This document shows positions 3,836 through 42,495 of a stretch of 64,000 nt of DNA, piece by piece (positions within the stretch are counted from its first letter, which is position 1; every line of letters starts with the position of its first letter). The DNA comes from Limnohabitans sp. G3-2 (GTDB lineage: Bacteria; Pseudomonadota; Gammaproteobacteria; Burkholderiales; Burkholderiaceae_C), in assembly GCF_002778275.1 (NCBI RefSeq), contig NZ_NESG01000006.1, forward strand, positions 248,001-312,000, given 5' to 3'. Below the pieces are notes generated by a model. That model was not told the origin of the DNA. It worked only from the letters and a program-made list of their open reading frames with translations, and ran no database searches. The position numbers were made by a program, and so were the translations under genes.

Positions 3836-4768
3836 TCAGGGCTTGGATCCGAGCAGCGCCTCTCGCGTTCCTGCTTGTTGGAGCTGCGCGGTCCACCACA
3901 GCAGCGCGTGACCCGCGGGGCTCAGGCGGCTGTCGCGCCAAGCGGCGTGAACGCTGTTCAGCCTCGATTGTTCGGTGTTTTTGATCACCAACTCGCCTGT
4001 GGCCACGAAGGGTTGGGCCAAGCTCATGGGCAAGAACCCCGCGCCCAGGCCACGCAATTGCGCTTGCAGTTTGCTGGGCATGTCGGGCACCGTGAAAACG
4101 TCCTGTCCGCCTTGCAGGCCCACGGTGAGGCCGCTGCCGCGTTGGACCGAGTCGGCCACCGCCACCACCCGGTGCTGCATCAGCAGGGCATTGCTCAAAG
4201 GTTCTTGGGCCTGGGCCAAAGGGTGTTGCGGCGCGACGGCAAAGACAAATTGAACGTCGCCCAATGCAATGTGCTGGATGTCTGCGGTCAGGTGCTGGCC
4301 CAGCGCGACGCCCAAGGCCAAGTCGGCTTGCCCCGAGGTCAGCGCGGCCATGGTGCCCGACAACGCTTCGTGGCGAATCCGCAAACGGGTGGGGCTGTTC
4401 AGGGCCAAAAAGGCCTCGCACAAATCCATCACCACGTCGCGGGCCATGATGCTGTCCACCGCCACCGTGAGCACACCCTCCCAGCCGGTGGCCACACGTT
4501 TGACACGGTTGGCCACACTGTCGATGTCTTGCAGCAAACGCCCGGCCTCGCGCAGCAGTTCACGGCCAGCGGCCGTGGGACGGGCTTGCCGCGCACTGCG
4601 GTCAAACAGCAGCACATCCAGCGCGTCTTCGAGTTGTCTGACCCGGTAGGTCAGGGCGCTGGGCACCAGGCCTAACTGGCGTGCAGCGGCCGCAAAACTG
4701 CCTTGTTCGGCAATGGTTTGCAGCATGAACAGGGCGTCTGGCGTGAGCCAATCTTTGGGGCTTTGCAT
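3836..4768 (-). CDS. LysR-family transcriptional regulator
   Basis: A 310-residue LTTR. The winged helix-turn-helix covers about residues 10-67 (SFAAAARQLG, then a YRVRQLEDAL recognition region), and the periplasmic-binding-protein-like co-inducer domain makes up the rest. It is divergent from the pirin/flavoprotein pair. A perfect inverted repeat with T-N11-A form lies 17 bases from its start codon, so it probably represses itself and controls the pirin operon. The inducer is unknown; the target genes suggest an oxidant or quinone signal (inference). Confidence 0.88.
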   Translation of the reverse strand: MQSPKDWLTPDALFMLQTIAEQGSFAAAARQLGLVPSALTYRVRQLEDALDVLLFDRSARQARPTAAGRELLREAGRLLQDIDSVANRVKRVATGWEGVLTVAVDSIMARDVVMDLCEAFLALNSPTRLRIRHEALSGTMAALTSGQADLALGVALGQHLTADIQHIALGDVQFVFAVAPQHPLAQAQEPLSNALLMQHRVVAVADSVQRGSGLTVGLQGGQDVFTVPDMPSKLQAQLRGLGAGFLPMSLAQPFVATGELVIKNTEQSRLNSVHAAWRDSRLSPAGHALLWWTAQLQQAGTREALLGSKP

Positions 4769-4784
4769 GGTTTGGCTATTTTAT

Positions 4785-4799
4785 TTCAAATAATTTGAA
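4785..4799. promoter_or_regulatory. LysR-box inverted repeat in the divergent promoter region
   Basis: TTCAAA-TAA-TTTGAA is a perfect 6-bp inverted repeat that contains a T-N11-A core, the classic LTTR recognition form. Its centre (about 4792) is some 64 bases upstream of a transcription start inferred from a TACAGT -10-like hexamer at 4844-4849. That is the usual place for an LTTR recognition site. Confidence 0.6.
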
Positions 4800-4874
4800 T
4801 GATGACGGCAAAACCATTGCACCGCAGGCTGGCTCTTTTTCCCTACAGTTCAGCTCTGTTTTGAGGAATCACCC

Positions 4875-5588
4875 ATGTTGACCCTGCGCAAATCATCGGA
4901 ACGTGGTTACGCCGACCACGGCTGGCTCAAGTCCTTCCACAGCTTTTCTTTTGCCAACTACTTTGACCCCGCCCACATGGGCTTTGGCAACCTGCGCGTC
5001 ATCAACGAAGACCGGATCGACCCGGGCACCGGCTTTGGCACCCATGGCCACCGCGACATGGAAATCATCAGCTACGTGCTGTCGGGCAATTTGGCCCACC
5101 AAGACAGCATGGGCAATGTCAAAGGCATTCCGCCCGGCGACGTGCAGCGCATGAGCGCTGGCAGTGGGGTGCGCCACAGCGAGTTCAACCACGCCCAAGG
5201 CGAGCCCACCCACTTTTTGCAGATCTGGATCGAGCCGAATGTGACGGGCATCGACCCCGGCTACGAACAAAAAACCGTGCCTGAAAGTGCCAAGCGCGGT
5301 CAATTGGCCTTGGTGGCCGCACCCGCGGCCGACGCACAGTCGGCCCCGCACGCCGTGCAGATCCACGCCGATGCCCGCATGTTTGCCGGCCTCTTCCATG
5401 GTGCCGAGGCAGCCCAATTGCCGCTCGATCCCGCCCGCAAAGCCTATGTCTTTTTGGTGCGCGGCAGCTTGCAGGTCAACGGCCAAGCCTTGCGCGCAGG
5501 CGATGCCGCCATGCTGCAGGACGAATCGGCCCTGAGCTTGTCACAAGGCGAGAACGCCGAAGTGCTGGTGTTTGACTTGTCCGCTTGA
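4875..5588 (+). CDS. Pirin-family cupin protein (YhhW-like, putative quercetinase)
   Basis: A 237-residue bicupin. The four metal ligands of pirins are all present: H57 and H59 (GTHGHRDME), H101 and E103 (RHSEF). Bacterial pirins of this class (E. coli YhhW) can act as quercetin 2,3-dioxygenases; the physiological role is uncertain. A short run of C-terminal cupin strands ends the protein. It is 27 bases ahead of the WrbA-like gene and divergent from the LysR gene, the usual arrangement for a LysR-controlled redox-responsive pair. Confidence 0.88.
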   Translation: MLTLRKSSERGYADHGWLKSFHSFSFANYFDPAHMGFGNLRVINEDRIDPGTGFGTHGHRDMEIISYVLSGNLAHQDSMGNVKGIPPGDVQRMSAGSGVRHSEFNHAQGEPTHFLQIWIEPNVTGIDPGYEQKTVPESAKRGQLALVAAPAADAQSAPHAVQIHADARMFAGLFHGAEAAQLPLDPARKAYVFLVRGSLQVNGQALRAGDAAMLQDESALSLSQGENAEVLVFDLSA

Positions 5589-7122: not shown

Positions 7123-10100
7123 ATGTTTGTTCACCTGCGCCTTCACTCCGAATTCTCTGTCGTTGACTCGACTTGCCGCATCGACGATGTGGTCAAGATC
7201 GCGGCCAAAGACGCTCAGCCCGCGCTGGCCATCACCGACCTGAACAACCTGTTCGGGACGGTCAAGTTCTACAAAGAAGGCCGCGGCAAAGGCGTCAAAC
7301 CCCTCATTGGCGCCGAGATCCATTTGGAAGGCCTGGGCGCCGATCTGAGCGCCACCAGCCGTGTGGTGCTCTTGGTGCAAAACCACCGGGGTTACCTGCA
7401 CATTTGTGAGTTGTTGGCCCGCGCTTGGACCCAAAACGTGGTCAAAGGCGTGGCCGCCGTGAAATTGGCCTGGCTGCATGAACTCTCTGAGGGCTTGATC
7501 TTGCTGTCCGGCGCACAAGCCGGGCCGGTCGGTCAAGCTTTGGTGCAGGGTGACCACGACAAAGCGGCCGATGTCGCTTTGCAGCTGGCGTCCATCTTCC
7601 CCCACCGCTTTTACCTGGAACTGCAACGCGCAGGCCGCCCCGAAGACGAGCCCCAAGTGGCCGGCGCCGTGGCTTTGGCGGCCCGTTTGCACCTGCCTGT
7701 GGTGGCCACGCACCCGGTGCAGTTTCATGGGCCCGACGATTACGAAGCCCACGAAGCACGGGTGTGCATCTCCGAAGGCGAAATCCTGGCCAACCAGCGC
7801 CGCGTGCGCCGCTTCACCCGAGAGCAGTATTTCAAGTCGGCTGCACAAATGTGCGAGCTGTTTGCCGATGTGCCCAGCGCCATTGCCAACACCCTCGAAA
7901 TTGCCAAACGCTGCAACCTGACCTTGGTGTTGGGCAAGCCCCAGTTGCCAGACTTCCCCATTCCACCCGTGAATGGCGTGGTCATGTCGGTGGAGGATTA
8001 TTTCCGTCACGTTTCCTTTGAGGGCTTGGAGGCACGTTTGGTGCATCTGTACCCTGACCCAGCCCAACGCAGCGAGGAGCGTGCGCGCTATGTGGAGCGC
8101 TTGGAGTTTGAGCTCAACACCATCTTGAAGATGGGTTTTCCGGGTTATTTCCTGATCGTGGGTGATTTCATCCAATGGGCCAAGGGCAACGGTTGCCCTG
8201 TGGGGCCGGGCCGAGGCTCGGGCGCAGGCTCGCTCGTGGCGTATGCGCTCAAGATCACCGACCTCGACCCCCTGCAGTACAACTTGCTGTTCGAGCGGTT
8301 TTTGAACCCCGAGCGGGTGTCCATGCCCGACTTTGACATTGACTTTTGCCAGGGCAACCGTGACCGGGTGATCGACTATGTGAAGGACAAATACGGTCGC
8401 GAGGCGGTCAGCCAGATCGTGACCTTCGGCACCATGGCGGCGCGCGCGGCCATCCGTGACGTGGGCCGCGTGCTGGACATGAGTTACACCTTTTGCGACG
8501 GCATCAGCAAGCTCATTCCCAACAAGCCGGGCATGTCGGTCACGCTGCAGTACCCGCCCGCCACGCCCAAAGAAGGCGACAAGAACAACTATGCGATTGC
8601 CATGGAGCCCATCCTGGCCGAGCGCATCGAGCGCGAAGAGGATGTGAAGACCCTGATCGAGCTGGCGCAAAAGCTCGAAGGCATGACCCGCAACGTGGGC
8701 ATGCACGCCGGAGGGGTGCTGATTGCACCGGGCAAACTGACCGACTTTTGCCCGCTCTACCAGCAGCCCGGCAGTGACTCGGCGGTGAGCCAGTACGACA
8801 AGGACGACGTGGAGGCGGCGGGCTTGGTGAAGTTCGACTTCTTGGGCCTGGCCACGCTGACCATTTTGGAGATCGCCCGCGAATTCATCATGAAGCGCCA
8901 CAAAGGCCAGGAGAACTTCGCCTTTGAGAACATCCCGCTCGACGATGCGCAGACCTACAAGCTGTTTTCGGACGGCAAGACCGAGGCCGTGTTCCAGTTT
9001 GAAAGCCGCGGCATGCAGGGCATGCTGCGCGATGCGCGCCCGAGCCGCCTGGAAGACCTGATCGCGCTCAACGCTTTGTACCGCCCAGGCCCCATGGACC
9101 TGATCCCCAGCTTTGTGGCCCGCAAACACGGGCGCGAAGAGGTGGAGTACCCGCACCCTGCGGTGGCGCAGATGCTGTCGGAGACCTACGGCATCATGGT
9201 CTACCAAGAGCAGGTGATGCAGACGGCCCAGATTCTGGGGGGCTACTCGCTGGGCGGCGCCGACCTGCTGCGCCGTGCCATGGGCAAGAAGAAGGCCGAA
9301 GAAATGGCCGAGCACCGCGAGAAGTTCCGTGCGGGCGCCTTGGCCACCCACGGCATTGCGCAGGACAAGGCCGACGAAGTCTTTGACCTGATGGAAAAGT
9401 TCGCAGGCTACGGCTTCAACAAGTCGCACGCCGCCGCTTATTCGCTGCTGGCCTACCACACGGGTTGGCTCAAGGTGCACTACACCGCCGAGTTCTTCTG
9501 CGCCAACATGACGGTGGAAATGGACGACACCGACAAGCTCAAGGTGCTGCACGAAGATGCCCTGAAGTTCGGCATTCGCTTTGACCCGCCCGACGTGAAC
9601 CGGGGCACGCACCGCTTTGAGCCTGTGACCGACAAAATCATCCGCTACGGTCTGGGTGCCATCAAGGGGACAGGTCAGCAGGCCATCGACGCCATCGTCG
9701 CCGCCCGCAACGAGGGGGGGCCTTTCAAGAGCTTGTTTGACTTTGCGGTGCGCGTGGACCGCACCAAAATCAACAAACGGACGGTGGACGCGCTGATCAA
9801 GGCCGGGGCTTTTGACTCGCTGCACATGAACCGCGCCGCCTTGTCGGCCAGCATTGAGCGCGCATTTGAATTCTCGAACGCCACCACCGCCAACGCCAAC
9901 CAAGGCGGCCTGTTTGACATGCTCGGCGACGACTCGCACGGCTCGAGCACGCAAGAGCCTGAGCTGGTCGAAGTCATGCCCTGGGGCATCAAGGAGCGGT
10001 TGCTGCTCGAGAAAACGGCGGTGGGTTTTTTCCTGTCGGGCCATTTGTTCGATGCGGTCGAGCGCGAAGTGCGCCAGTTTGCCCGCCGCAAAATCGACGA

Positions 10101-20487: not shown

Positions 20488-20572
<85 letters not shown>

Positions 20573-33689: not shown

Positions 33690-34207
33690 TGAAAACGATC
33701 CGCAAGAACCTTCTCGTCGCTTTGGTGGCTGTTGCATCGACATGGGCATGCATGGCGCAAGCGCAAGATTTCAAAATCGGTATCGTCAACACCGACCGCA
33801 TTTTGCGCGACTCCAATGTGGCCAAAAATGCCCAGGCCAAGCTGGAGTCTGAGTTTTTGAAGCGCGAAAAAGATTTGAACGAGGCCATCAGCGCATTCAA
33901 GACCGCGGCCGAAAAATTTGAGCGCGATGCGCCCACTTTGTCTGAGGCGCAGCGTTTGGCCAAGCAAAAACAATTGGTCGATCAAGACCGTGATTTGAAG
34001 CGTCGCCAGCGCGAATTCCAAGAAGACCTGGGTGCCCGTAAGAACGAAGAAAACCAGATGTTGTTCGAAAAAGCAGGCCGCGCCGTCAAGCAAGTGGCTG
34101 AGACTGAAAAATACGATTTGGTTTTGCAGGATGCTGCTTACTTCAACGCCAAGCACGACATCACTGAAAAAGTCATCAAAGTTCTCAACGCCTCGGTGGG
34201 CAAATAA
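33689..34207 (+). CDS. skp: Periplasmic chaperone Skp/OmpH
   Basis: A 172-residue periplasmic chaperone that holds unfolded outer-membrane proteins for BamA. A signal peptide (about 1-25, ending AQAQ) is followed by a short beta body ([15 protein letters not shown]) and two long coiled-coil tentacles rich in Lys/Glu/Gln (about 50-135). The start codon shares a base with the bamA stop (TAATG), so the two are coupled. Confidence 0.95.
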
Positions 34208-34223
34208 CAGGCCTTGGCCTGTT
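34206..34223 (+). other. Intercistronic stem-loop between skp and lpxD
   Basis: AACAGGCC-TT-GGCCTGTT is a perfect 8-bp inverted repeat overlapping the skp stop codon and ending seven bases before the lpxD GTG. There is no T run, so it is not a terminator. No Shine-Dalgarno sequence is seen for lpxD; the hairpin may affect its translation. Confidence 0.5.
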
Positions 34224-34230
34224 CGATACC

Positions 34231-35223
34231 GTGTCTTTGACGCTTGGCGCGATCGTTGAGGCTCTGGGCGGGCGCTTGTTGGGCGCACCTGACCAGGTCA
34301 TCACGGGTTTGGCGCCTTTGCGGAGTGCGCAGCACGGCCAGATCAGTTTTCTGAGCCAAGCGCGCTACCAAAGCCAGTTGGCGGACAGTCTGGCGAGCTG
34401 TGTGATCGTGAGCCCGGCTTTTGAGGTCCAGGTGGCCCAGCGTCCCGCGGCCATCATCACCGATGACCCGTATGGGTACTTTGCCCGATTGACCCAGTTG
34501 TGGAAGCGTTCGCTCCCGCGCTCTAAAGTTCCCAACATCCACCCCAGTGCGGTGATCGACCCCGAGGCCCTCATCGCCGCAGATGCCGTCATTGGTCCTT
34601 TGTGTGTGGTGGAGCGTGGCGCCGAAGTCGGTCCCGGAACCTGGCTGAAGTCTCGCGTGACGGTGGGTGAAGATTGCAAAATCGGAGCCCGTTGTCTGGT
34701 GCATTCTGGGGTTGTGATTGGTGCCGACGGGTTTGGGTTTGCGCCGCACCAAGGCCAGTGGGAAAAAATTGAGCAGCTGGGCGCGGTGCGCATCGGCAAC
34801 GATGTTGAAATCGGCGCCAACACCTGCATCGACCGAGGCGCCTTAGAGGACACGGTCATCGAGGACGGTGTCAAACTCGACAACCTGATTCAGATTGGCC
34901 ACAACGTGCAGGTGGGCAAGCACACGGCCATGGCCGGTTGCGTTGGCGTGGCAGGAAGTGCCAAGATTGGCGCCCATTGCACCGTGGGCGGCGGTGCTGT
35001 GGTGCTGGGGCACCTGAGCGTGGCGGACCATGTGCACATTTCTGCCGCCTCGGTGGTCACGCGATCCATCTCGCAGCCCGGGCACTACACCGGCATGTTT
35101 CCTCTGGACACCAATGCCCATTGGGAAAAAAACGCCGCCAGCCTCAAACAATTGTCCCGCTTGCGCGAACGCATCAAAGCCCTCGAGGCGGACATTCAAA
35201 ACAACAAGGAAAACCGACCATGA
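34231..35223 (+). CDS. lpxD: UDP-3-O-(3-hydroxyacyl)glucosamine N-acyltransferase LpxD
   Basis: A 330-residue hexapeptide-repeat acyltransferase that adds the second (N-linked) hydroxyacyl chain in lipid A synthesis. The uridine-binding N-terminal domain is followed by left-handed beta-helix repeats (about 105-290) and a C-terminal helix. The catalytic His lies in [10 protein letters not shown]. The start is GTG at 34231. It overlaps fabZ by four bases. If the gnnA/gnnB products feed LpxA, LpxD receives a 3-amide-linked substrate. Confidence 0.95.
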
Positions 35224-35660
35224 TGGACATTCACAAGATTCTCAAGCAGTTGCCGCACCGTTACCCCTTTTTGCTGGTGGACCGCGTGCTCGAGCTCGAA
35301 AAGGGCGTGCGCATCAAGGCTTTGAAGAATGTCACGATCAACGAACCCTTTTTTACGGGCCATTTCCCGCACCGGCCCGTCATGCCCGGTGTGCTGATGC
35401 TCGAAGCACTGGCCCAGGCGGCAGCTTTGCTTTCTTTCGACACCTTGGATGCGGCCCCGGACGAAAATACGGTTTATTACTTCGCGGGCATTGATGGGGC
35501 ACGCTTCAAGCGGCCCGTGGAGCCGGGTGATCAGTTGACCTTGGAAGTGCAACTGGACCGCATGAAGGCGGGTATTTTTAAATTCAAAGCCCAAGCCAAA
35601 GTGGGAGACGAATTGGCTTGTGAGGCGGAGTTGATGTGCACGATGCGCAAAATTGCGTGA
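35220..35660 (+). CDS. fabZ: 3-hydroxyacyl-[ACP] dehydratase FabZ
   Basis: A 146-residue hotdog dehydratase of fatty-acid elongation. The active-site His and Glu are in [11 protein letters not shown] and LMLEALAQA (near residues 47-66). The ATG at 35220 overlaps the lpxD stop (ATGATG, so a start one codon later is possible). Its place between lpxD and lpxA is conserved: FabZ competes with LpxA for 3-hydroxyacyl-ACP and so balances phospholipid and lipid A. Confidence 0.97.
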
Positions 35661-35666
35661 GGATTT

Positions 35667-36482
35667 ATGGCCACTATTCATTCAACCGCTTTGGTCGATC
35701 CGGCCGCCCAGCTCGATGCCTCCGTCACCGTCGGTCCCTACACCATCATTGGCCCCAACGTGGTGGTGGGCGCCGGCTCTTCGGTGGGTTCGCATTGCAC
35801 GATTGAGGGGCACACCACCATCGGGCAAAACAACCACATCCACAGTTACACATCCTTAGGCGCTGCGCCGCAGGACAAGAAATACGCGGGTGAACCGACC
35901 CGCTTGGTGATCGGCCATGGCAACACCATCCGTGAGTTTTGCACCTTCAACGCCGGCACCGTGAACGGTGGCGGTGTGACCCAAGTGGGTGACGACAACC
36001 TGTTCATGGCGTATGTCCATTTGGCGCACGATTGCCAGGTGGGCAGCCACACGATTTTTGCCAACAACTCCCAGCTGGCGGGACATGTCGTGGTGGGCGA
36101 CTGGGTCATTTTGGGCGGCTTCACGGTGGTGCGTCAGTTCTTGCGTCTGGGGGCGCACAGCTTCACGGCCATGTGCACTTTGTTGTTTGCCGACCTGCCG
36201 CCTTACATGACGTGCCAGGGCCAGCCCGCTGCTGCCCGAACTGTGAATGCCGAAGGTTTGCGTCGGCGCGGTTATTCGCCTGACCGAATCACGGCCGTTC
36301 GGGCCATGCACAAAGCCCTGTACCGAGAAAACCTCACATTCGAAGCGTCCAAAGAACGCATCTTGCAAATCGCCAAGTCCAAACCCGAGGTCCAGCCCGA
36401 TGTGGACATGATGCTGGACTTTTTGTCCGGTGTTTCTCCCAAAGTGGGCATCGTTCGTTCGCGTCGCCGTTCGGTCGATTGA
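35667..36482 (+). CDS. lpxA: UDP-N-acetylglucosamine (or amino analogue) acyltransferase LpxA
   Basis: A 271-residue beta-helix trimer that starts lipid A synthesis. The catalytic base is H121 (HLAHDC), equivalent to E. coli H125. The acyl ruler position, G173 in E. coli, is M169 here (HSFTAMC), as in Pseudomonas aeruginosa, where Met limits the chain to C10. The position of E. coli H160 is R156 (TVVRQF), while Q157 is kept. With gnnA and gnnB downstream, the acceptor may be UDP-GlcNAc3N and the acyl bond an amide (inference). Confidence 0.95.
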   Translation: MATIHSTALVDPAAQLDASVTVGPYTIIGPNVVVGAGSSVGSHCTIEGHTTIGQNNHIHSYTSLGAAPQDKKYAGEPTRLVIGHGNTIREFCTFNAGTVNGGGVTQVGDDNLFMAYVHLAHDCQVGSHTIFANNSQLAGHVVVGDWVILGGFTVVRQFLRLGAHSFTAMCTLLFADLPPYMTCQGQPAAARTVNAEGLRRRGYSPDRITAVRAMHKALYRENLTFEASKERILQIAKSKPEVQPDVDMMLDFLSGVSPKVGIVRSRRRSVD

Positions 36483-36532
36483 ACAAACCCAGGGCCAGCG
36501 TTTGCTTGGCCCGAGCATGAAAGGAGGGCCCT

Positions 36533-37474
36533 GTGGCCCTGTTGCGTTGCGCCGTGATCGGCGTTGGTTATCTGGGCAAATTCCATGCTCAAAAGTACGC
36601 CAAAATCCCCGAGTGTCAGCTCGTGGCGGTGGTGGACAGCCGTCAAGAACAGGCCGAAGCGGTTGCAGGTCCTTTGGGGTGTGCGGCGCTGACGGATTAC
36701 CGTGCTCTGATCGGTCAGGTCGACGCGGTTTCCATCGTGGTGCCCACACAGGGGCATTACGAGGTCTGTGCCGAATTTCTTCGGGCCGGTGTGCACGTTT
36801 TGGTCGAAAAGCCCATGACCACCACCTTGGAGCAGGCCGATGAACTGATCCGCTTGGCCAAAGAGAACAACTGCGTCTTGGCCGTGGGGCATTTGGAGCG
36901 CTTCAACCCTGCGGCTTTGGCCTTGGAGCCTTTGTTGTCGAACCCCCGCTTCATCGACAGTTCGCGCCTGGCCCCGTTCAAGCCACGCGCCACCGATGTG
37001 AGTGTGCTGCTCGATCTGATGATCCACGATGTGGATTTGATTTTGTCGCTGGTCGACAGCGAGCTGGAAAGTGTGGAGTGTTCGGGTGCCCGCGTGTTGA
37101 CCACCGACATTGACATTGCCAACGCCCGCATTCGTTTTGCCAATGGTTGTGTGGCCAACGTCACCGCCAGCCGCGTGAGCGCCAAAAGCGAGCGAAAAAT
37201 GCGTGTTTTTCAAGAGAAAGCCTGTCACTCTCTGGATTTTCAGGCCCGTACATTGACCACTTACAAAGGCGCCACCGCGCTCTTGGCCGATACCGAGTTG
37301 GCCATTGAGCGTCACGAGCAGTCGTTTGGCGAGGCCGATCCCTTGTTTTCTGAAATCCTCGACTTTGTCGAGAGCATTCGCGCTGGCCGCCCACCCAAGG
37401 TGAGTGGTGAGGCTGGGCGCCGTGCGCTGGAAGCTGTTCAGCGCATCACCGAAGCCACCCGTCTGATTTCCTAA
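36533..37474 (+). CDS. gnnA: GnnA-like UDP-GlcNAc 3-dehydrogenase (Gfo/Idh/MocA family)
   Basis: A 313-residue NAD(P)-dependent oxidoreductase. The Rossmann motif is GVGYLG (residues 10-15), EKP is at 92-94, and the C-terminal family motif DLMIHDVDL gives the catalytic-type His165. In Acidithiobacillus ferrooxidans GnnA oxidises the 3-hydroxyl of UDP-GlcNAc and its gene lies between lpxA and lpxB, as here. The start is GTG at 36533 with a strong AGGAGG five bases upstream. A hairpin GGGCCA/TGGCCC precedes it. Another sugar dehydrogenase role is possible, but context argues for GnnA. Confidence 0.75.
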   Translation: MALLRCAVIGVGYLGKFHAQKYAKIPECQLVAVVDSRQEQAEAVAGPLGCAALTDYRALIGQVDAVSIVVPTQGHYEVCAEFLRAGVHVLVEKPMTTTLEQADELIRLAKENNCVLAVGHLERFNPAALALEPLLSNPRFIDSSRLAPFKPRATDVSVLLDLMIHDVDLILSLVDSELESVECSGARVLTTDIDIANARIRFANGCVANVTASRVSAKSERKMRVFQEKACHSLDFQARTLTTYKGATALLADTELAIERHEQSFGEADPLFSEILDFVESIRAGRPPKVSGEAGRRALEAVQRITEATRLIS

Positions 37475-37501
37475 TGATTTTGCCTGTTTGAAAGGTACGC
37501 C

Positions 37502-38602
37502 ATGCCCATCCCAATGGTCGATCTGGTCGCGCAATACCGCGATCTCCAACCCCAGCTGGAACCTGCGTTGTTGAAAGCCTTGACGGCTGCGCAATTTATT
37601 TTGGGCCCCAATGTCCAAGCCTTTGAGAAAGAGGCGGCCGAGTACCTCGGTGTGGCCCATGCCATCACTTGTGCCAACGGCACCGATGCATTGCACCTGG
37701 CCTTGTTGGCTGCGGGTATTGGGCCTGGCGACGAGGTGATCACCACGCCTTTCACATTCATTGCGACCGCAGAGGCCATTGCCTATGTGGGGGCCAAAGC
37801 CGTGTTTGTTGACATCGATCCCTGCACCTTCAATATCGACGTGGCGCAGGCCCAGCGCGCCATCACCGCCAAGACCAAGGCCTTGTTGCCGGTGCATTTG
37901 TTTGGACAGCCCGCCAATTTGGCGCCTTTGATGGCCCTGGCCAAAGAACACGGGCTTCAATTGGTGGAGGACTGCGCCCAATCTTTTGGTGCCGATATCG
38001 GTGGCATCCAGACTGGCGCGATGGGGGATGTGGCCGCTTTCAGCTTTTTCCCCAGTAAAAATTTGGGCTGCTTTGGTGACGGCGGCATGGTCACAACGCA
38101 GTCGGACGAGATGGCGCAAACCCTGCGCATGCTTCGTAACCACGGCAGCAAGGTGCGTTATTACCACGACATCGTGGGTTACAACAGCCGACTGGATGAA
38201 TTGCAGGCCGTGGTGCTGCGGGCCAAGTTGCCCTTGATTGACCATTACAACCAAGAGCGTCGCCGTGTGGCTCACCGCTATAACGCTGGCTTGTGTTTGC
38301 TGAACTTGCAAACGCCCTGCGAAGATGGCGTGGGCTTGCATGTGTTTCACCAGTACACCTTGCTGACCGATGACCGTGCGGCCATCCAACAGGCTTTGAC
38401 CGAGCACAACATCGCCAGCGCTGTCTATTACCCCGTGCCTTTGCATCAGCAAAAGGTATTTGCCGACATTTCCGCAGGAGCCCATTTCCCGGTCACCGAG
38501 TCGGTTGCGCAGCGCTGTTTGTCGCTCCCCATCTATCCAGAGCTGAGCAACGAAGCCATCGACGAAGTGTGCGGCGTGATTCGCCAGGCTTTGAAGGCGT
38601 GA
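37502..38602 (+). CDS. gnnB: GnnB-like UDP-3-keto-GlcNAc aminotransferase (DegT/DnrJ/EryC1 family)
   Basis: A 366-residue PLP sugar aminotransferase. The PLP lysine is K186 (FFPSKNLGCFGDGG). CANGTDALHLAL (near 57-68) and the conserved EDCAQSFGA (near 156-164) complete the site. GnnB aminates the 3-keto sugar made by GnnA to UDP-GlcNAc3N. It lies 27 bases after gnnA and its stop overlaps the lpxB start (TGATG), tying it to lipid A synthesis. WbpE-like enzymes of O-antigen pathways are the closest alternative. Confidence 0.75.
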   Translation: MPIPMVDLVAQYRDLQPQLEPALLKALTAAQFILGPNVQAFEKEAAEYLGVAHAITCANGTDALHLALLAAGIGPGDEVITTPFTFIATAEAIAYVGAKAVFVDIDPCTFNIDVAQAQRAITAKTKALLPVHLFGQPANLAPLMALAKEHGLQLVEDCAQSFGADIGGIQTGAMGDVAAFSFFPSKNLGCFGDGGMVTTQSDEMAQTLRMLRNHGSKVRYYHDIVGYNSRLDELQAVVLRAKLPLIDHYNQERRRVAHRYNAGLCLLNLQTPCEDGVGLHVFHQYTLLTDDRAAIQQALTEHNIASAVYYPVPLHQQKVFADISAGAHFPVTESVAQRCLSLPIYPELSNEAIDEVCGVIRQALKA

Positions 38603-39774
38603 TGGCGGACGCAGGGCCAGCTTCGACCCGCGCCACTGCAGACTTGCGGGTGTGCATGGTGGCGGCCGAGCGTTCGGGCGACATGCTCGCGGCCTTGTTG
38701 TTGCAAGGCATGCAAAAAACCTGGCCGCTCATGCAAGCTTCGGGCATTGGCGGGCCGCGTATGGATGCGACGGGTTTCGCATCGCGCTGGTCGTGTGACG
38801 AGTTGTCGGTGCGCGGCTTGGTGGAGGCGCTTTGGCGCTACCGCCACATCAACGGCATCCGGCAGACCTTGATCCAGGATTTGCTGGCCGCCCCCCCCAG
38901 CCTCTATGTGGGCATCGATGCCTCCGACTTCAACTTGCCCGTGGAGCGTTTGCTGCGGCAAAAAGGTGTGCCGACGGTTCAGTTGGTGTGTCCCTCTATT
39001 TGGGCCTGGCGTCCTGAGCGGGTGCAAAAAATCCGCGAAAGCGTGGACCATGTGCTGTGTATTTACCCGTTCGAGCCGGATTTGTTGGCCCAGCATGGCA
39101 TCGATGGCACTTTTGTGGGCCATCCCGTCGCCGATGTCATTGCGCTGGAGCCTGACCGCTTGAAGGCAAGGGCCGCTCTGGGTTTGCCACCCGAGGCCCC
39201 CATCGTGGCTTTGTTGCCAGGCAGCCGGCCTTCTGAGGTGAAAGGTTTGGCCTTGCCGTTTTTGCAGGCGGCGCAGTGGATGCGTCAGCAAAGGCCTGAA
39301 TTGAAATTTGTGTTGCCCACGCTTGAGCTTTTGAAGCCCGTGATCGATGCCGCCATTGCCCAGACGGGTTTGCAGTCACATGTGCAGGTGGTGCTGGGCC
39401 AATCGCACGAGGTGCAGGCGGCTTGCGATGTGGCCCTGGTGGCCAGTGGTACGGCCACTTTGGAGACCGCTTTGCACAAGCGCCCCATGGTCATCGCTTA
39501 CAAAATGCAGTGGCTGTCTTGGCAGATCGCCAACCGTCAGCGCTTGCTTCCGTGGGTCGGCTTGCCCAATATTTTGTGCAACGACAGCTTGGTGCCCGAA
39601 TTTTTGCAAGAGCAAGTGCGGCCCAAAGCGCTGGCACAGGCGGTCCTGCGTTGGCTGGAAGATCCTGTCGCTGTGGCCCACCTTCAGGGGCGGTTCACAG
39701 ATTTGCACCATCAACTGCGTCAGGACATGCCGACGCTGGCGACCCATGCGATCCAAAAAGTCATTGCTGCTTGA
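38602..39774 (+). CDS. lpxB: Lipid-A-disaccharide synthase
   Basis: A 390-residue GT19 glycosyltransferase that joins UDP-diacylglucosamine and lipid X. The N-terminal start [12 protein letters not shown] is the family GEXSGD-type region, [12 protein letters not shown] (near 132-143) and [10 protein letters not shown] (near 203-212) are conserved, and the C-terminal SGTATLE segment is present. The ATG at 38602 overlaps the gnnB stop; the longer frame runs into gnnB and is rejected. It overlaps rnhB by 29 bases. Confidence 0.96.
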
Positions 39775-40363
39775 GCAAAAAACCTTGAATTGGGATACCG
39801 ATGGCCTGGTGGCCGGGGTAGACGAGGCTGGGAGAGGCCCATTGGCTGGCCCCGTGGTTGCCGCGGCGGTGATCTTGGACGATTTGAACCCCATTCGTGG
39901 ATTGAACGATTCCAAAAAACTCACCGCCAAGAGACGCGAGGCCTTATTTGACGAAATTCGGGCGCGCGCCCTGTGTTTCGCCATTGCCGAAGCCAGTGTG
40001 CAAGAAATTGACCAAATCAACATCTTGCAAGCCACATTGTTGGCCATGAAACGGGCCGTTGAAGCGTTGCGACTGCCCCCTAAATTGGTCTTGGTCGACG
40101 GCAACCGCTTGCCCACTTTGGCCATTCGGGCTGAAGCCATTGTGCAAGGCGATGCTTTGGTGCCGGCCATTTCAGCGGCTTCTATTTTGGCGAAGGTGCA
40201 CCGCGACCGCTTGTGTCAAGCGATGCACCTGCGCTACCCTGTGTATGGATTTGACCAACACAAAGGCTATGGCACGGCCCAACACTTGGCTGCCCTGCAA
40301 GCCCATGGCCCGGCAGATTGCCACAGATTGACATTTGCCCCGGTGGCCAGGAGCGTGCGGTGA
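39746..40363 (+). CDS. rnhB: Ribonuclease HII
   Basis: A 205-residue endonuclease that cuts RNA in RNA/DNA hybrids, including single ribonucleotides. The catalytic pair is in [14 protein letters not shown] (near 22-35), with further conserved residues in LVDGNRLP and [13 protein letters not shown]. The ATG at 39746 overlaps the end of lpxB by 29 bases; a TTG at 39764 is an alternative. The stop overlaps the next gene by GTGA. Confidence 0.94.
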
Positions 40364-41133
40364 AGCCGATCACGTCGCGAGACAACCCCCATGTGAAACT
40401 TTGGCGGCGTTTGGCCCAAGAGACCACGGCCTACCGCAAAGTGGAACAATTTTGGCTGGAAGGCGATCACCTCTGCCGCGCGGCTCTCGAGCGTGGTGTG
40501 CGACCCCTGCAGGTGGTGATGACCGAGACCTTTCAACGCGAACAGGGTGAAAAGTGGATGGGTTTGACCGATCAAGTCTTTGTCTTGCCCGATGCCTTGT
40601 TTGACAGCTTGAGTGGTTTGGAGTCACCGGCCCGCATGGGCTTTGTGGTGGCCTGGGGTGCTGAAACACAGGTTTTGCCCGATCAGCCGACCGTGGTGCT
40701 GGACCGCTTGCAAGATGCCGGCAATGTGGGGGCCATTTTGCGATGCGCTTCGGCTTTTGGATACCGACAGGTTTTGGCGGTCAAAGGCACCGCAGCCCTG
40801 TGGTCCCCCAAGGTCCTCAGAGCCGGTATGGGCGCGCATTTTGGTCTGAAATTGGTCGAATCGGTCAGCGAGGCGCACGTGGCGGCTTTGCAAGTGCCCA
40901 TTTTGACGACCAGTTCGCACGAAGGGCCTTTCTTGCATGACGTGCTTCGCCGAGGTGACTTGCCCAGTCCTTGCGCTTGGGTTTTTGGGCACGAAGGGCA
41001 GGGTGTGAGCGAGGCCCTGATGGCCATGGCTCGGCATTCCGTTCGCATCGCTCAGCCCGGTGGTGAAGAGTCCTTGAACGTGGCCACGGCTGCGGCCATT
41101 TGTTTGCATGCCAGTGCGACCGTGGCACTGTGA
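40360..41133 (+). CDS. TrmH/SpoU-family RNA 2'-O-methyltransferase
   Basis: A 257-residue SPOUT enzyme. The N-terminal substrate-binding domain is followed by the knotted motifs [14 protein letters not shown] (near 126-139), [13 protein letters not shown] and [11 protein letters not shown]. It probably 2'-O-methylates rRNA or tRNA; the exact site is unknown. The start is GTG at 40360 with CAGGAG six bases upstream, overlapping rnhB by four bases. It ends the lpx-rnhB transcript. Confidence 0.9.
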
Positions 41134-41198
41134 TACTTTTGCCCGTTGTGCGAGGGTTTTGAGGGCCGATTTGTCAGGGTTTTCAAGTAGTCCTCAGC

Positions 41199-41331
41199 TA
41201 TAATGGTGGGCTTTCCCGCATCAACCTGTACGCCACAGTCCATCCCAGGCCCAATCCTCGAACAAGCAGCCAAAAAGAGATCGCATCTCTGGTGAGTGCT
41301 GAGGCGTACCCGAACTATTCCGGAGAACCCA
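41199..41331 (+). promoter_or_regulatory. carA promoter -10 and 127-base leader with a hairpin
   Basis: A perfect TATAAT at 41199-41204 should start transcription near 41211, giving a leader of about 120 bases. It contains AGAGAT-CGC-ATCTCT (41276-41290) and ends with CGGAG before the GTG start. A leader this long before carA is compatible with pyrimidine- or arginine-related control, but no known riboswitch or PyrR motif is recognised. Confidence 0.5.
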
Positions 41332-42495
41332 GTGCTTTTGTCTCTTCAGGGAACCTTCCCGCCCGCCATCTTGGCGCTCGCAGACGGCACGGTCTTTATC
41401 GGCAACTCGATTGGAGCCACGGGCTCCACAGTCGGCGAAGTGGTGTTCAACACCTCGCTCACCGGCTACCAAGAAATCCTCACCGACCCCAGCTACTGCC
41501 AGCAGATCGTCACCTTGACGTACCCGCACATCGGTAACTATGGCGTCAACGTGGAAGACATCGAGGCTGACAAAGTCCATGCTGCTGGTTTGATCATCAA
41601 AGATTTGCCTTTGGTCGCCAGCAACTTTCGCTCGAGCCAAACCCTCTCTTCTTACCTTGTGGGTGCCGGCACCGTCGCCATCGCCAACATCGATACCCGT
41701 CAACTGACCCGTATTTTGCGCACCAAGGGCGCGCAAAACGGTGCCATTGTGGGCCTGGCCAAAGGCCAAGAAGTCACGCAAGCGTTGATCGACCAAGCCG
41801 TCTCTGCAGCCCAAGGCGCGCCCCATATGGCGGGCCTCGATTTGGCGCAAAAAGTCACCGTGTCCAAGCCGTATGAGTGGACACAAACCGAGTGGACATT
41901 GGGCGAAGGCTACGGCAACTTGACCGCACCGAAGTTCCATGTGGTCGCTTATGACTTTGGCGTGAAGAAAAACATTTTGCGCATGCTGGCCGAGCGCGGC
42001 TGCAAGGTGACCGTGGTCCCTGCCAAGACGCCAGCCGCTGAAGTGCTCAAGCACAAGCCTGACGGCATCTTCCTGTCCAACGGCCCTGGCGACCCCCAGC
42101 CTTGCGACTACGCGATCGCTGCGGCCGCTGAGTTGATCGAAACCGGTATCCCCACCTTTGGCATTTGCTTGGGCCACCAGATCATGGCCTTGGCCAGCGG
42201 TGCCAAGACTTTCAAGATGAAGTTTGGCCACCACGGCGCGAACCATCCTGTGAAAGACCTTGACTCAGGCCGTGTCTCCATCACCAGCCAAAACCACGGT
42301 TTTGCAGTGGATGAGAAGTCATTGCCCGCCAACTTGCGTGCCACGCATGTGTCTTTGTTTGACGGCACTTTGCAGGGCTTGGCCCGCACCGACAAGCCTG
42401 CTTTCTGCTTCCAAGGCCACCCTGAGGCCTCGCCCGGCCCGCACGACATTGCTTACCTCTTTGACCGCTTCATCCATTTGATGGAGGCGAAATAA
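41332..42495 (+). CDS. carA: Carbamoyl-phosphate synthase small subunit
   Basis: A 387-residue glutamine amidotransferase subunit that passes ammonia to CarB for arginine and pyrimidine synthesis. The CPSase small-chain domain is followed by the GATase1 domain with nucleophile C279 (GICLGHQ) and the C-terminal His/Glu of [13 protein letters not shown]. The start is GTG at 41332, six bases after GGAG; the ATG further up lies in the leader and has no site. It lies two bases before carB. Confidence 0.97.

Follow-up and report, generated by a model that had tools for sequence, protein, structure and literature searches.

The backbone type of lipid A is usually regarded as a stable character in chemotaxonomy. 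A GnnA/GnnB pathway was reportedly described by Sweet in 2004 in Acidithiobacillus ferrooxidans, and an earlier note on the DNA analysed here places gnnA and gnnB of that species between lpxA and lpxB. According to two papers, the A. ferrooxidans enzymes convert UDP-N-acetylglucosamine (UDP-GlcNAc) to a 3-amino sugar (PMC8036547, PMC5644692). The first of these also records gnnA and gnnB in Campylobacter jejuni, where loss of the two genes makes cells activate TLR4 more strongly and become more sensitive to antimicrobial peptides (PMC8036547), and another paper describes the same two genes in Capnocytophaga canimorsus, along with two lpxA genes and a backbone that is a hybrid of 2,3-diamino-glucose and glucosamine (GlcN3N-GlcN; PMC3342949). 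Here we describe a gnnA-gnnB pair between lpxA and lpxB of Limnohabitans sp. G3-2, found in a 64,000-nucleotide stretch (referred to below as the window) of a genome of 3.25 Mb. Limnohabitans is an abundant freshwater genus of the Comamonadaceae, which bears out the Comamonadaceae-like host proposed in the earlier note. The pathway itself is already known, and its exchange as a block within Limnohabitans is the larger finding: lpxA, gnnA, gnnB and lpxB very probably form a module of the diamino-sugar pathway that has moved between lineages of the genus by allelic replacement.

Reading frames and family matches confirm that a Gfo/Idh/MocA dehydrogenase gene and a DegT-type aminotransferase gene are inserted between lpxA and lpxB, as previously claimed, and the strong ribosome-binding site and TGATG overlap described with them are both seen on direct reading:

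35667..36482, forward strand: lpxA, carrier allele (TIGR01852, 297 bits, cut-off 231)
36520..36528, forward strand: ribosome-binding site of gnnA, AAAGGAGGG, 5' of the GTG start
36533..37474, forward strand: gnnA, Gfo/Idh/MocA protein with a GTG start (PF01408, 117 bits), a predicted NAD-dependent UDP-GlcNAc 3-dehydrogenase
37502..38602, forward strand: gnnB, DegT/DnrJ/EryC1 protein (PF01041, 408 bits), a predicted pyridoxal phosphate (PLP) aminotransferase yielding the 3-amino form of UDP-GlcNAc (UDP-GlcNAc3N)
38600..38604, forward strand: TGATG stop/start overlap of gnnB and lpxB, coupling the aminotransferase gene to lpxB
38602..39774, forward strand: lpxB, carrier allele (TIGR00215, 296 bits, cut-off 190)

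gnnA is present in 23 of 90 Limnohabitans genomes (15 of the 56 of good quality), which we call carriers. The loci of the 22 other carriers were compared with those of 34 of the 65 LpxA-positive non-carriers, picked for long contigs, and gene order was assessed among 15 operon genes searched per locus. The order lpxA-gnnA-gnnB-lpxB was found in all 22 carrier loci and in all three loci of a second genus of the family, while lpxA is followed by lpxB in each of the 34 non-carrier loci. Since this order is constant across 25 loci in two genera, the insertion is more than chance. The matched parts of the four genes contain no internal stop in these 25 loci and their codon differences are mostly at third positions, showing that the frames of the module are intact and under purifying selection.

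Particular LpxA and LpxB alleles accompany the gnnA-gnnB pair, a point missing from the earlier note. Exactly one LpxA match was found in each of 88 of the 90 genomes of the genus, two being without a match, and its identity to the LpxA of the window is 84–100% in the 23 carriers versus 63–71% in the other 65 (two of these matches being partial); the high-identity set is precisely the 23 gnnA genomes and none besides. Among the compared loci, lpxA is 83–96% identical to that of the window in carriers (n = 22) versus 63–70% in non-carriers (n = 34), and lpxB is 73–89% identical in 21 of the 22 carriers versus 53–59% in the 34 non-carriers. The genes next to the module are:

34231..35223, forward strand: lpxD, upstream flank, outside the module
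35223..35660, forward strand: fabZ, which co-travels inside Limnohabitans but apparently not in the second genus
39761..40363 (estimated start), forward strand: rnhB, downstream flank, outside the module

Identity of fabZ to the window is 94–99% in the 22 carriers, 84–91% in the 34 non-carriers and 79–80% in the three second-genus loci. The carrier and non-carrier ranges overlap for lpxD (78–89% in 22 versus 70–81% in 34), rnhB (81–94% in 20 versus 73–93% in 34), bamA (75–92% versus 72–83%) and carA (89–98% versus 88–97%), the flank genes being available in 19–22 of the 22 carriers, and non-overlapping ranges are confined to fabZ, lpxA and lpxB among the genes compared. Since the fabZ of the second genus takes another position in the fabZ tree, whose resolution is weak, fabZ is unsupported as part of the module shared across genera. 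Nor was LpxC seen as a co-travelling partner: for lpxC, which is unlinked and was matched in 85 of the 90 genomes (two of the five missed being carriers), identities overlap with no gap, full-length non-carrier matches reaching 91% and several carriers standing at 90–92%.

The module conflicts with the trees of rpoB and of its own flanks. A tree of lpxA and lpxB (59 rows) needs a single change of state, which falls on a branch of 0.67 between carriers and non-carriers, and the second genus sorts with the carriers. Five changes are needed in the tree of the upstream flank (55 rows) and nine in that of the downstream flank (58 rows), and strongly supported branches alone force four changes in each; in all three trees the second-genus carriers were scored as carriers. 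Carriers are also scattered in a tree of the unlinked rpoB (five changes, two forced by supported branches), on which a single carrier clade is rejected by the approximately unbiased test (p-AU 0.0002). The rpoB tree comprised 40 genomes, namely all 15 carriers in which rpoB was matched and 25 of the 38 non-carriers in which it was; its bootstrap was unsettled and two carrier rows were partial.

The clearest case is that of three carriers nested in a non-carrier group (L065, L068 and L074), which were chosen for pairwise comparison post hoc, with the trees already seen. Compared with four near non-carriers, they share 87–94% identity in BamA, 66–69% in LpxA and 53–56% in LpxB. Against eleven carriers of the main group the values are 75–79% for BamA, 88–97% for LpxA, 88–96% for GnnA, 87–98% for GnnB and 81–92% for LpxB. 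At the nucleotide level, the identity of five carrier/non-carrier pairs rises from 48–60% in the last full lpxB bin to 75–80% and then 78–92% in the next two bins (52%, 79% and 92% for carrier L064 and non-carrier L093). The gnn module thus appears to be an exchangeable allele of the ordinary lpxA-lpxB site, scattered among Limnohabitans species.

The reaction of the dehydrogenase was predicted from its relatives. GnnA has the features of the Gfo/Idh/MocA family, with a Rossmann motif (VGYLG), the lysine of EKP and a DxxxHD motif (DLMIHD), and residues E92, K93, P94, D161, H165 and D166 are invariant across 32 aligned sequences. Among solved structures a single strong relative stands out, 7bvj (235 bits, E 1.2e-68; the runner-up scores 80 bits), which we take to be a GnnA structure, its database label reading only NAD-binding oxidoreductase. 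A literature search for structure 7BVJ found no paper, and no entry named WbpB occurs among the best 60 of the 86 solved relatives of GnnA. The top-scoring curated family is NF040723, an archaeal UDP-GlcNAc 3-dehydrogenase (208.6 bits). In a GnnA tree of 110 rows, which held no WbpB sequence, the Comamonadaceae proteins form one clade, to which the homologues from other Burkholderiales do not belong; it sits among GnnAs many of which are lpx-linked, with unlinked rows intermixed (support 83 at the adjoining fork).

The aminotransferase retains PSKNLG with the presumed PLP lysine, K186, and has the features of the DegT/DnrJ/EryC1 family, which includes WbpE (312 bits). In a GnnB tree of 73 rows, whose root we set on WbpE and its relative 8e75, the window GnnB is sister to a Halothiobacillaceae GnnB that adjoins lpxB (L215; support 98), within a clade of eight rows that are all lpx-linked. 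Strongly supported branches divide it from WbpE, and the grouping with O-antigen enzymes that the earlier note had named as a refutation was therefore not found for this protein.

Lipid A containing 2,3-diamino-glucose is the best prediction for carriers and, as first proposed from this locus, it draws support from the relatives of GnnA and GnnB and from gene context. GnnA would oxidise the 3-hydroxyl of UDP-GlcNAc with NAD+ as acceptor, GnnB would transaminate the keto sugar to UDP-GlcNAc3N, and the module LpxA, which probably prefers this substrate, would transfer the first 3-hydroxyacyl chain onto the new 3-amino group. LpxC and LpxD would act next, and the module LpxB would then join the amide-linked precursors, the four genes serving as one functional module. 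No LpxA other than the carrier allele was found in the genome, so each of the two sugars of lipid A would be a 2,3-diamino-glucose and all four primary chains would be amide-linked. The module sits at the ordinary lpxA-lpxB site, and its spread between lineages would amount to allelic replacement of that segment, for which homologous recombination in the flanking sequence is the simplest route. It is reasonably likely that two interchangeable modules occupy this one site, an ester-type lpxA-lpxB and an amide-type lpxA-gnnA-gnnB-lpxB, which are swapped by flank recombination like O-antigen cassettes and may constitute a selected polymorphism, LpxA and LpxB having been remodelled after import, including a His160Arg change in LpxA that is unseen in 30 other gnn-locus LpxAs.

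Five LpxA residues (Ser64, Tyr65, Arg160, Leu163 and Val197 in E. coli numbering) are fixed in 26 of 26 carriers including the second genus and occur in none of 61 family non-carriers; one more such position lies near the C-terminus. Val197 is the E. coli letter as well, and at position 160 the carriers have arginine in place of the E. coli histidine. These fixed differences make a short list of candidates for the residues that govern sugar selectivity. His122, His125 and His144, which we take to be catalytic, are kept in both alleles. Residue 173, presumably the acyl ruler for short chains (about C10) when methionine, was rejected as a carrier difference, being methionine in 23 of 23 carriers and 33 of 34 non-carriers of the genus. 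A literature search on LpxA with His160 found no paper.

To place the locus among its relatives, 80 GnnA loci were kept from 585 relatives in named genomes. It can be seen that 51 of the 80, three of them of the window type, have lpxA, lpxB, fabZ or lpxD within 4.5 kb; lpxB is near in 46 and lpxA in 32. Several observations nevertheless weigh against a lipid A role for the module as set out above. The remaining 29 loci have no lpx gene within 4.5 kb, some of them ending at a contig edge, and linked and unlinked homologues are intermixed, with 19 changes in the GnnA tree and 17 in the GnnB tree, so that the trees alone are no proof of a lipid A role and homologues may serve other sugars. In the GnnB tree, 7b0d, on a long branch, is placed inside the GnnB part. 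GnnA scores below the NF040723 cut-off of 450, although this model was built for the archaeal form and a lipid-A-linked Halothiobacillaceae homologue likewise falls below it (213 bits). LpxC, which would be needed to accept the new intermediate, has no carrier-specific form. Finally, position 160 is histidine in 28 of 30 LpxAs from other gnnA-bearing loci (threonine and isoleucine in one each), which rules out His160Arg as a general mark of gnn-linked LpxA. Gene context is stronger evidence for the lipid A role than are the GnnA and GnnB trees.

Alternatively, the 2,3-diamino sugar made by GnnA and GnnB might be destined for O-antigen or capsule, the position of the two genes between lpxA and lpxB being incidental. 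This would fit with the inclusion of WbpE in the aminotransferase family and with 16 Burkholderiales gnnA loci outside Limnohabitans at which lpxA was not seen upstream of gnnA in the stretch covered (up to 1.5 kb), one of them having an lpxA-like gene 3' of gnnB. We consider it extremely improbable given the placement of GnnB in its tree, the distinct LpxA and LpxB alleles that accompany the pair, and an lpxA-lpxB interval that holds these two genes alone, with no acetyltransferase or epimerase gene there. It is unlikely, but less so, that the lipid A is mixed, the module LpxA taking both UDP-GlcNAc and UDP-GlcNAc3N to give a blend or a GlcN3N-GlcN hybrid. The specificity of LpxA is unreadable from its sequence, the three histidines being common to both alleles, and the C. 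jejuni backbone is GlcN3N-GlcN (PMC7956469). However, only a single LpxA match is present per genome, whereas C. canimorsus with its hybrid backbone has two lpxA genes, and LpxA and LpxB alleles both differ alongside gnnA-gnnB, suggesting specialisation. The single LpxA match favours a fully diamino backbone over a two-LpxA hybrid of the C. canimorsus kind.

It is also conceivable that no transfer took place: the genus would have started out with the module and lost it repeatedly, with reversion of LpxA and LpxB to the ordinary form. Tree change counts cannot separate gain from loss, and the module is present in the second genus too. We nonetheless judge this history very improbable, since the LpxAs of Limnohabitans non-carriers fall together with those of other family genera, outside the carrier clade, near non-carriers differ from carriers by one third in LpxA, and carrier LpxAs that are 88–97% alike lie in flanks only 75–79% alike in BamA. 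With exchange by allelic replacement preferred, the simplest history is that gnnA-gnnB was imported from a proteobacterium outside the family, that the native LpxA and LpxB changed fast, and that the block was then exchanged. Carrier LpxA is a long-stemmed sister of the LpxAs of other family genera (93-row tree; support 99 for the carrier clade and 84 for the sister side, the family rows being the closest 27 of 99 matches and hence biased to near kin), and import of LpxA from outside the family is accordingly unsupported. The LpxB of carriers falls within the family, at the end of a stem of 0.6, with weak support (85–86) at the forks that place it, and the second genus shares lpxA, gnnA, gnnB and lpxB of the carrier type. 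The GnnB tree points to a Halothiobacillaceae-like source, while the GnnA tree does not give the same sister. A foreign base composition was not seen, the four genes having 57–60% guanine plus cytosine (GC) against 59.6% for the window.

Within the family, gnnA (E <= 1e-40) was found in 8 of 299 sampled genomes and 3 of 141 genera, namely Limnohabitans, the second genus, which is small (3 of 3 genomes), and a single genome whose homologue is more distant (46% identity for gnnA, 36% for the adjoining lpxA-like gene). It occurs in 18 of 349 genomes sampled from the order (E <= 1e-60) and 127 of 369 from the class. One scan for viral gnnA gave four pattern matches, none of them a relative; one paper reports a lake-sediment viral auxiliary gene annotated as gnnA (PMC12783922).

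Other arrangements of these genes were observed. An Ectothiorhodospiraceae locus (L238) has two lpxA genes that both pass LpxA models, 4231–4926 (forward strand) and 8972–9736 (reverse strand), one beside gnnA-gnnB and the other beside fabZ and lpxB, and may represent a split ester/amide or hybrid system. In two Rhodocyclales loci an lpxA-family gene lies directly 3' of gnnA-gnnB (L276, 7066–7824, which passes LpxA models, and L278, 7063–7848); lpxB was not seen within the stretch examined. In another member of the Burkholderiales (L129, 350–3391, reverse strand) gnnA-gnnB adjoin a lysophospholipid/lauroyl acyltransferase-type gene that passes NF006487, which suggests a separate, differently arranged lipid A link within the order.

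The operon of the window reads pyrH-frr-cdsA-dxr-bamA-ompH-lpxD-fabZ-lpxA-[gnnA-gnnB]-lpxB-rnhB-rRNA methylase-like gene-carA, where the names of all flank genes but lpxD are our assignments from their sequences. A promoter search over 34000–41400 found none and is uninformative, shuffled sequence giving 1.9. An antisense frame of 737 codons (36272–38485, reverse strand) over gnnA and gnnB was rejected as a gene, having a stop in 22 of 25 related loci, and looks like a by-product of GC-rich codons. The sole RNA-family match within the window is a tRNA-Leu (anticodon cag; 20488–20572, reverse strand).

If this reading is true, backbone chemistry is an evolvable surface trait that differs among close Limnohabitans relatives through module exchange, and matched carrier and non-carrier species offer a natural experiment on the effects of amide-linked lipid A. 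Such an anchor is predicted to be chemically tougher and, speculatively, its effects might include resistance to esterases, cationic peptides, predators or phages. Among the titles and abstract openings of the literature matches listed, in which subscription journals are thinly covered, we found no report of GnnA/GnnB or of lipid A backbone type in Limnohabitans or the Comamonadaceae and none of lipid A chemistry in Limnohabitans, in line with the earlier view that diamino lipid A is little known from the group.

Compared with known systems, the WbpB/WbpE O-antigen pathway uses related dehydrogenase and aminotransferase families, but its gene context differs and the window GnnB is not grouped with WbpE. 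C. canimorsus and C. jejuni share 2,3-diamino-glucose in lipid A, in a hybrid GlcN3N-GlcN backbone (PMC3342949, PMC7956469), and the two lpxA genes of C. canimorsus contrast with one LpxA match per Limnohabitans genome. Four Geobacteraceae loci (L217, L222, L239 and L240) have lpxD-fabZ-lpxA-gnnA-gnnB-lpxB in the same order as the window, and a fifth (L248), which starts inside fabZ, has it as far as the contig extends; their LpxA differs, being 42–47% identical to that of the window and keeping His160. The A. ferrooxidans system, likened here by description and not by sequence, has the same two enzyme families and the same predicted conversion of UDP-GlcNAc to UDP-GlcNAc3N; the locus of the window differs from it in its Comamonadaceae host, in its family-type LpxA and LpxB, in its presence in 23 of 90 genomes and in its exchange between lineages.

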